Shown one piece after another: positions 62,189-64,000 of a stretch of DNA of 64,000 nt (position 1 is its first letter; each line of letters starts with the position of its first letter). Under the pieces are notes generated by a model that saw only the letters and a program-made list of their open reading frames with translations, did no database searches and had not been told where the DNA came from. Origin of the DNA: Nocardioides euryhalodurans (lineage in GTDB: Bacteria; Actinomycetota; Actinomycetes; Propionibacteriales; Nocardioidaceae); the NCBI RefSeq assembly GCF_004564375.1, contig NZ_CP038267.1:2234501-2298500 (forward strand). The letters are read 5' to 3'. Made by a program: the position numbers and the translations under genes.

Positions 62189-63430
62189 TCACGCCGAGCC
62201 CGGGCGGAGGGTCCGGCGCAGGTGCGCGGTGACGTGCGGCGACGTGGTGAGCGCGACGGCGCGGTCGGCCGAGGCCGGTGCGGTCGGCAGTCCCAGCTCC
62301 TGCTCGCACAGCGCCCGCAGCACCCAGTACGGCTGGTAGCCGGCCACGGCAGCCTCACCCAGCTCGGCGACGAGCGCGTCCAGCTGGGCGAGGGCCGTGC
62401 TCGCTCCGCTGACCTGCCGATGCGCCGCAGCCCTGGCCACGGCCGTCCCCGTGGTGGGGGCGAGCCGGATCAGCCCGTCGTAGAGCTGGACGATGCCGTT
62501 CCAGTGGGTCTGGCCGGTGGCGCTGCGTCGGTTGTGGAGGGACTGGATCGCCGCCAGCAGCTGGTAGGGCCCGAGGCGGCCTCCCCCGAGCGCGACGGCG
62601 AGGTGACGTTCGGCCTCGCCGACGAGCTCGCGCGACCACGAGGTCACGTCCTGGTCGGCCAGCGGCACGTACGCCCCGCTCGCGTCACGGCGCGCGTCGT
62701 GGCGGGCGTGCGAGTGCAGCATCAGGGAGAGCAGCCCGTGGGTCTCCGGCTCCCCGGGGAGCAGCTCGGTGAGCAGCCGGGCGAGTCGGATCGCTTCGGG
62801 CACCAGCTCCTGTCGGGCGTCGTCGAGGCCGTCGACGTCGTCCCAGCCGGTCCCGTAGGCGGCGTACACGGCCTCGAGCACGGCGTCGAGACGCTCCGGG
62901 AGCTCCTCGGGTCCGGGGACCCGGAACGGGATGCCGGCGTCCTTGATCTTGGCCTTGGCCCGCACCAACCGCTGCCCCATCGTGGTCGGAGCCACCAGGA
63001 ACGCCCGGGAGATCCTCGCGGCATCCAGCCCGAGCACGGCCTGCAGGATCAGCGGGCTACGCATCTCGGGGGCGATCGCGGGGTGGGCACAGGCGAACAT
63101 CAGGCGCAGCCGGTCGTCCGGGATCTCCCCGGCGGGCTGCTGCTCCCAGCGCTCCTCGATCGCCCGAGCCAGTTCCGGAAGGGCCGAGCGCGCCACGTCG
63201 CGGCGCCGGGACGCATCGATGATCCTCCGCCGCGCAGCCGTGAGCAGCCACGACTCCGGTCGCTCCGGGATGCCGCGATCGGGCCAAGTGCTCAGGGCGG
63301 CGACCAGGGCGTCGCCGAGGGCGTCCTCGGCGGCAGCAAGGTCGCCCGAGACCGTCGCCAGGTAGGCGACCAGGCGGCCGTACGACGTCCGGGCGACCTC
63401 GTCGACGGCCGCAGCCGTGGGGCTGGTCAC
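62189..63430 (-). CDS. ECF42-group RNA polymerase sigma factor
   Basis: A 413-residue sigma factor of the ECF42 type (about twice the usual ECF length). Region 2: YGRLVAYLATVSGDLAAAED and WLLTAARRRIIDASRRRDV. Region 4: LGLDAARISRAFLVAPTTMG with QRLVRAKAKIKDAGIPF. A long C-terminal helical extension (DUF6596/TPR-like, about 180-413) contains HGLLSLMLHSHARHDARRDA and YQLLAAIQSLHN; in this group the extension is known to be needed for activity. No anti-sigma factor is adjacent, as expected. The GTG at 63430 overlaps the YCII gene stop (GTGA), so the pair is co-translated. Confidence 0.92.
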   Translation of the reverse strand: MTSPTAAAVDEVARTSYGRLVAYLATVSGDLAAAEDALGDALVAALSTWPDRGIPERPESWLLTAARRRIIDASRRRDVARSALPELARAIEERWEQQPAGEIPDDRLRLMFACAHPAIAPEMRSPLILQAVLGLDAARISRAFLVAPTTMGQRLVRAKAKIKDAGIPFRVPGPEELPERLDAVLEAVYAAYGTGWDDVDGLDDARQELVPEAIRLARLLTELLPGEPETHGLLSLMLHSHARHDARRDASGAYVPLADQDVTSWSRELVGEAERHLAVALGGGRLGPYQLLAAIQSLHNRRSATGQTHWNGIVQLYDGLIRLAPTTGTAVARAAAHRQVSGASTALAQLDALVAELGEAAVAGYQPYWVLRALCEQELGLPTAPASADRAVALTTSPHVTAHLRRTLRPGSA

Positions 63431-63783
63431 GTCCGCGGGGGCAGCAGCGGGCGCACCTCGACCGAGGCATAGCTCGCCGAGGGACACCGCTCGGCCCAGG
63501 CCAGGGCGGTGTCGAGATCGGGGACGTCGATGACGAAGTAGCCCCCGAGCTGCTCCTTGGTGTCCGCGAAGGGACCGTCCTGGACCCGGCGCCTCCCGTC
63601 GCGCACACGCACGGTCGTCGCCGTCCACGGGGGTTGCAGGCCACCCGCACCGACGAGCAGGCCGCTCTCGGTGAGAGCGTCGATGTAGCCCTGCCAGGAC
63701 TCCCAGTATTCGCCGCTGCGCTCGGGGTGGTCCCGGGTGGCAAAGGCGTCGTCGTCCTCGAGCGCCTGGATGAGGTAGTGCAT
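63427..63783 (-). CDS. DGPF/YCII-domain protein, ECF42 partner
   Basis: A 118-residue YCII-related protein: MHYLIQALEDDDAFATRDHP, then SGLLVGAGGLQPPWTATTVR and the diagnostic DGPFADTKEQLGGYFVIDV, which gives the DGPF family its name. DGPF genes accompany ECF42 sigma factors and are their usual targets; their chemistry is not established. The ATG at 63783 has GGAGG about five bases upstream. Transcribed from the sigma-type promoter at 63828-63854 and translationally coupled to the sigma gene. Confidence 0.92.
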   Translation of the reverse strand: MHYLIQALEDDDAFATRDHPERSGEYWESWQGYIDALTESGLLVGAGGLQPPWTATTVRVRDGRRRVQDGPFADTKEQLGGYFVIDVPDLDTALAWAERCPSASYASVEVRPLLPPRT

Positions 63784-63827
63784 GGTGGCCTCCTGGGTCT
63801 CGGGGCAGGTGCTGCCTCCACAGGGCA

Positions 63828-63854
63828 GACGTCCGGGCGACTGCGGTTTCGACA
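63828..63854 (-). promoter_or_regulatory. ECF42-type promoter of the YCII-sigma operon
   Basis: On the minus strand TGTCGA (63854-63849) is followed by 17 bases and CGTC (63831-63828), about 45 bases before the YCII start. From family knowledge, ECF42 sigma factors use TGTCGA at -35 and a CGA/TC-like -10, so this operon is probably autoregulated. Confidence 0.75.
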
Positions 63855-63893
63855 TCGCCCGGACCGCAGCGAGCAGTCACCGATGTCGAAACC
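63845..63893. repeat. 13-bp inverted repeat holding both -35 elements
   Basis: GGTTTCGACATCG (63845-63857) and CGATGTCGAAACC (63881-63893) are perfect reverse complements with a 23-base spacer. They carry the two back-to-back TGTCGA elements pointing outward, so this is a duplicated promoter core and not a terminator. Confidence 0.8.
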
Positions 63894-63910
63894 CTCGCAC
63901 CTCCGACGTC
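63884..63910 (+). promoter_or_regulatory. ECF42-type promoter facing right
   Basis: TGTCGA (63884-63889), 17 bases, then CGTC (63907-63910), the same spacing and -10 as the minus-strand promoter and the same flanking GATGTCGAAACC. It points to the gene starting at 63969, leaving a leader of roughly 50 bases, and marks that gene as a sigma ECF42 target. Confidence 0.75.
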
Positions 63911-63968
63911 TGCAGGTTGAGCAGGTCCTTCCGGCCCGCGATCCGCACCCTGACACCAGGAGCACACG

Positions 63969-64000
63969 ATGACCACCACCGAGACCACGGCCCAGACCAT
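63969..64000 (+). CDS. Start of an ECF42-target gene (cut by window edge)
   Basis: Only the first ten codons are visible (MTTTETTAQT), opening with ATG preceded by AGGAG at a good distance. The downstream part lies outside the window, so the product cannot be named. It is divergent from the YCII-sigma operon and has a matching sigma-type promoter about 60-85 bp upstream. Confidence 0.6.
   Translation, partial: MTTTETTAQT

Follow-up and report, generated by a model that had tools for sequence, protein, structure and literature searches.

Two Predicted ECF42-Type Promoters Facing a YCII-Sigma Operon and a Divergent SRPBCC Gene in Nocardioides euryhalodurans

Introduction

Sigma factors of the ECF42 group are widespread. 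According to one view, contacts with another protein, perhaps the YCII protein, that are made through the C-terminal extension set the activity of these sigma factors (PMC8999054). Among the closest described systems is that of Sinorhizobium meliloti, in which the ECF42 sigma factor RpoE10 uses the promoter TGTCGG-N17-CGTC, and the transcription start of SMc01149 was mapped to a position 12 nt beyond the initial C of CGTC (PMC6180224). Overexpression of RpoE10 raises the SMc01149-SMc01148 operon, and SMc01149 is described as binding hydrophobic ligands (PMC6180224). Expression of the YCII gene belonging to RpoE10 was not raised in the same work (PMC6180224), indicating that positive autoregulation is not universal in this group.

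Two further systems are comparable with the locus described here. ECF-10 of Pseudomonas putida belongs to the ECF42 group and has a similar genomic context; its knockout affects stress resistance and biofilm, as cited in PMC8999054 and PMC6180224. The accounts of ECF-10 in these two papers do not describe an SRPBCC target, whereas the present locus has a candidate one. The Streptomyces venezuelae ECF42 sigma factors Sven_0747, Sven_4377, and Sven_7131 (Liu et al. 2018, cited in PMC8999054) share with our sigma factor the C-terminal extension and the YCII/DGPF neighbor. In this study, we analyzed a 64,000-nucleotide stretch of the N. euryhalodurans genome, hereafter the window, in which a leftward YCII-sigma operon adjoins a divergent SRPBCC gene at the right edge. 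The S. venezuelae ECF42 sigma factors reportedly use a TGTCGA-type promoter as well, and they are not known to have an SRPBCC partner in divergent orientation.

Results

The features of the locus are listed in Table 1. The leftward operon consists of a gene for a YCII-family protein, the sequence of which includes the literal DGPF motif QDGPFADTKEQLGGYF, and an ECF42-type sigma factor gene, whose GTG start overlaps the YCII stop codon (GTGA). In the sigma factor, Sigma70_r2 was detected above its Pfam cut-off (E 1.7e-9), and Sigma70_r4_2 (E 9.7e-5) reached 22.4 bits, under its cut-off of 25.7 bits. The C-terminal extension matched DUF6596 (E 1.4e-29, residues 178-278) and gave no match to the Pfam TPR models; the trait of ECF42 proteins is a TPR-rich extension of approximately 200 residues. 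No candidate anti-sigma gene was found beside the sigma gene, where the Pfam-matched neighbors were YCII, AHSA1, Glyoxalase, and TetR and the remainder was judged by eye. With an ECF core of sigma-2 and sigma-4, an adjoining YCII/DGPF gene, and no adjacent anti-sigma gene, the protein has the predicted makeup of an ECF42 sigma factor.

On the opposite strand, a preliminary description of this DNA had a gene begin at 63969. An ATG was found at this position, preceded by a ribosome-binding site, and the reading frame was completed past the window edge from the whole-genome sequence. Beyond position 64000, the partner gene proved to encode an AHSA1/SRPBCC protein (AHSA1 PF08327, E 1.4e-12, profile positions 2-125 of 125) with weak sequence matches to the PDB entries 3q63 (Mll2253) and 2lak (AHSA1-like RHE_CH02687). 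Members of this family bind hydrophobic molecules. The SRPBCC gene is followed by a convergent glyoxalase-like gene and then by a TetR gene. Approximately 6 kb to the right of the SRPBCC gene and beyond the window (L014:14186-15551), two further SRPBCC genes flank an ArsR-like regulator gene, and this pair sits near glutamate decarboxylase-like and ClC-channel-like genes, both named by eye.

Table 1: Features of the YCII-sigma operon, the divergent SRPBCC gene, and the region between them (window coordinates).
Feature	Position	Strand	Details
ECF42-type sigma factor	62189..63430	-	sigma-2, sigma-4, DUF6596 C-terminal extension; GTG start
YCII-family protein with DGPF motif	63427..63783	-	ATG at 63783; AGGAGG 63794-63789; Pfam YCII E 5.2e-17
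ECF42-type promoter of YCII/DGPF-sigma operon (predicted)	63825..63854	-	-35 TGTCGA 63854-63849; 17-nt spacer; -10 CGTCTGC 63831-63825
Inverted repeat of 13-mer CGATGTCGAAACC	63845..63893	arms 63845-63857 (-) and 63881-63893 (+)	formed by the two facing -35 regions
ECF42-type promoter of SRPBCC gene (predicted)	63884..63913	+	-35 TGTCGA 63884-63889; 17-nt spacer; -10 CGTCTGC 63907-63913
SRPBCC (AHSA1 family) gene	63969..64000 in window, to about 64433 (L014:8470-8934)	+	154 aa; AGGAG 63958-63962

The gap between the operon and the divergent gene is approximately 185 bp. In this gap, at 63828-63910, the preliminary description had noticed two back-to-back, nearly identical promoters, and the sequence was indeed present on both strands. 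Both read GATGTCGAAACC...CGTCTGC, one per strand, and in each a spacer of exactly 17 nt separates TGTCGA from CGTC. The 13-bp inverted repeat that had been described along with this gap was also found with both of its copies; the 13-mer is perfect and occurs once per strand in the 64-kb window. In a repeat search, the arms could be lengthened to 33 nt (76%), and the 17-nt spacers of the two promoters were identical at just 9 of 17 positions. In first-order Markov shuffles of the window, TGTCGA-N17-CGTC was expected 0.61 times per 64 kb, and a divergent pair of such sites within 150 bp appeared in none of 300 shuffled windows.

We then compared these sites with ECF42 loci gathered from GTDB genomes by means of an alignment of the window sigma factor with the two sigma factors nearest to it. 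Hexamers were counted in 36 independent regions of 200 bp, each lying upstream of a YCII gene linked to ECF42. TGTCGA (27/36 regions) and CGTCAT (24/36 regions) were the two most enriched, each against 2.1 expected; the count presupposed no motif but had two Nocardioides loci among the 36 regions. The spacing between TGTCGA and CGTC upstream of such genes was 17 in 24 of 25 cases, and the TGTCGA-N17-CGTC(AT) form was also present upstream of YCII in many other ECF42 loci. A matrix was built from 44 non-redundant ECF42 sites, with the window locus, N. aequoreus, and N. terrigena left out. The window sites tied at 16.34 and ranked first and second, followed by the next-best site in the window at 10.37; the training sites had been picked by pattern, so these scores gauge fit, not discovery. 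The window sites therefore fit the layout expected of ECF42-dependent promoters, namely, TGTCGA, 17 bp, and CGTC upstream of YCII. This comparison, together with the mapped S. meliloti promoters of the same layout (PMC6180224), supports the assignment to ECF42 made in the preliminary description. The consensus quoted there, TGTCGA/CGA-TC, was correct in its TGTCGA part; its -10 part was not, as the element is CGTC(TGC).

Applying the offset of the mapped S. meliloti SMc01149 promoter, we predicted transcription starts at G 63919 (+) and G 63819 (-). The base at the equivalent position was G in 41 of the 44 training sites and in both window promoters. In the training sites, TGAGC forms a third conserved block, which occupies positions 34 to 38 past the initial T of TGTCGA and coincides with the mapped start; the SRPBCC-side window promoter has TTGAGCA exactly at this position.

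The same divergent SRPBCC/YCII-sigma pair was found in N. aequoreus (G004, also L078), with both promoters kept and an SRPBCC orthologue matching AHSA1 at E 8.3e-11. In N. terrigena (G149), the sigma factor of which is 81% identical, only the YCII-side promoter is present; the locus is without an SRPBCC gene, the place of which is taken by an exonuclease-like gene (identified by eye). All five promoters of the three loci read GATGTCGAA-N16-CGTCTGC with differing spacers. A search of 342 genomes from the family returned the core of this pattern, ATGTCGAA-N16-CGTCTG, 8 times, and 5 of these hits were the promoters of the three loci.

A perfect 13-bp inverted repeat between divergent genes has the usual look of an operator, and such a site could serve a dimeric repressor or activator of both genes, with the CGTCTGC matches being incidental. 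We rejected this interpretation as very improbable, because the arm distance is not fixed (the distance between the first bases of the two TGTCGA boxes is 30 bp in the window and 48 bp in N. aequoreus) and a single arm occurs in N. terrigena and at dozens of other loci. These two observations argue for two promoters rather than one palindromic operator. Moreover, each arm is conserved together with a CGTC exactly 17 bp away, and the sigma gene is the sole gene for a DNA-binding regulator that directly adjoins the gap.

It is likewise improbable that the YCII-side site alone is active and that the SRPBCC-side copy is a by-product without a regulatory role. The SRPBCC-side site is missing in N. 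terrigena, and the YCII-side site is the one conserved across phyla, as such an explanation would have it. However, the SRPBCC-side promoter was retained in N. aequoreus despite a protein identity of 71%, a changed spacer sequence, and an altered distance between the arms. The predicted start at 63919 also lies 50 nt from the SRPBCC start codon with its good ribosome-binding site, and SRPBCC genes with ECF42-type promoters occur in Rhizobiaceae too.

Searching the 4,017,744-base genome (4.02 Mb) for TGTCGA-N17-CGTC, the pattern named in the preliminary description, returned 13 sites, compared with 1 for a reversed control. The form TGTCGAAA with CGTC was found only at the two window sites; the other sites belonged to two ECF42 paralogue operons and to nine further places, mostly inside coding frames. 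When ATGTCGAA-N16-CGTCTGC was searched with up to two mismatches, the whole genome yielded just two extra sites, both poor and within coding-looking frames, and a wider regulon was rejected on this basis. Control of the convergent VOC/glyoxalase gene by ECF42 was also rejected, as TGTCG was absent from its strand in L014:9301-9700, a segment covering the possible starts and the upstream sequence. The predicted regulon in the 4.0-Mb genome would thus comprise two units, the YCII-sigma operon and the SRPBCC gene.

The genome contains four ECF42 sigma genes, that is, three paralogues of the window sigma factor, two of which likewise have TGTCGA-N17-CGTC promoters. The window promoters could in principle be of ECF42 type and be served by one or more of these paralogues within a shared ECF42 regulon. 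We consider this unlikely, because the promoters of the paralogues read TGTCGAG...CGTCCC, TGTCGAG...CGTCAG, and TGTCGTG...CGTGG, in contrast to TGTCGAAA...CGTCTGC at the window sites, and because the GATGTCGAA...CGTCTGC form is common to the loci of the most similar sigma factors. As the SRPBCC-side promoter has the variant of the adjacent operon, the adjacent sigma factor, not a paralogue, probably serves it.

The paralogue with TGTCGTG...CGTGG (L045, positions 2608757-2609938 of this genome) belongs to a second ECF42 subgroup that is common in the family. In this Nocardioidaceae subgroup (L053-L074 and L045), TGTCGT-N17-CGTG takes the place of TGTCGA-N17-CGTC upstream of YCII (21 independent regions). 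The comparison of TGTCGA...CGTC with TGTCGT...CGTG suggests that ECF42 subgroups within one genome may be kept apart by small promoter differences. Another site, TGTCGAGGGCTGACGAAGGGGGGCGTCATGG (L010, positions 3454508-3454534 of this genome, + strand), is apparently intergenic and lies before a long gene; it might be served by an ECF42 paralogue.

Discussion

The data are best explained, with a probability of roughly 0.88, if the adjacent ECF42 sigma factor recognizes two independent promoters and activates the YCII-sigma operon to which it belongs as well as the divergent SRPBCC gene. The sigma factor of the leftward operon would recognize TGTCGA as the -35 element and CGTC as the -10 element, with 17 bp between them, at both promoters, and would raise the two units simultaneously. 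We further propose that a signal would act through the C-terminal extension of the sigma factor, the YCII protein, or both, and that the SRPBCC protein would bind or convert a small hydrophobic compound as the output. We infer the binding by the adjacent sigma factor and the positive autoregulation from sequence comparison. The preliminary description had proposed that the sigma factor controls itself and the divergent partner gene; both proposals are supported by the comparative sequence data and by the mapped promoters of like layout in S. meliloti (PMC6180224). Three points stand against this account: the three ECF42 paralogues might cross-recognize the sites, though their own promoters differ; RpoE10 left its own YCII gene unraised (PMC6180224); and the N. 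terrigena locus is without an SRPBCC gene.

The locus resembles that of S. meliloti RpoE10 and its YCII gene SMc01151 in that an ECF42 sigma gene lies beside YCII and a neighboring AHSA1 gene has its own TGTCG-N17-CGTC promoter. In S. meliloti and Rhizobium leguminosarum, the AHSA1 gene comes after the sigma gene and has its own TGTCGG-N17-CGTC site. The S. meliloti SRPBCC gene lies downstream of the sigma gene in the same orientation, with a SnoaL-glyoxalase gene behind it, whereas that of the window is divergent. The -35 element also differs, being TGTCGG in S. meliloti, where YCII is unresponsive to the sigma factor, whereas the window has two near-identical TGTCGA promoters. Judging from its position and promoter, the SRPBCC gene beside the sigma gene in strain Ak57 probably corresponds to SMc01149; its promoter differs from the published SMc01149 promoter by one base, upstream of the motif. 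The Nocardioides and Rhizobiaceae SRPBCC proteins are only distantly alike (BLASTP E 0.26), implying that the family is shared and that the ligand need not be.

In the collected ECF42 genome loci, such an SRPBCC gene was found only in N. aequoreus and Micromonospora andamanensis, in the latter downstream of the sigma gene and without a recognized motif. At two alphaproteobacterial loci (L163 and L194), an ECF42-type promoter is followed first by a gene for a membrane-anchored SRPBCC protein and then by the YCII-sigma genes; the L163 gene matched Polyketide_cyc2 at E 2.4e-15, and the L194 gene is a clear homologue by eye. Three separate arrangements were seen: a divergent AHSA1 gene in Nocardioides, a downstream AHSA1 gene in Rhizobiaceae, and an upstream Polyketide_cyc2-type gene in other Alphaproteobacteria. 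From these comparisons, SRPBCC appears to be a recurrent, not constant, target of ECF42; the partner gene is present at two of the three most closely related loci and seldom at others. The partner gene had been put forward as a prime lead for the function of the system, and this holds at the family level, since SRPBCC recurs in ECF42 regulons; it does not hold in the sense of a constant partner. The comparison also suggests that SRPBCC genes joined ECF42 regulons more than once. A tentative extension, which we regard as more doubtful than probable, is that SRPBCC-fold proteins are a recurrent ECF42 output across at least three arrangements and that the ECF42/DGPF response deals with small compounds that are hydrophobic or reactive.

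The locus is a well-supported and fairly ordinary example of the already known ECF42 system, with a newly identified SRPBCC partner. With a predicted regulon of only two units, of which one is the SRPBCC gene by itself, the function of ECF42 would be unusually easy to test here. When the generic motif was sampled broadly at random in Alphaproteobacteria, it gave mostly background and was informative only beside YCII-sigma genes. In two Acetobacteraceae genomes (L176/G356 and L179/G354), a glutathione-transferase-like gene directly follows an ECF42-type promoter and may represent a further target.
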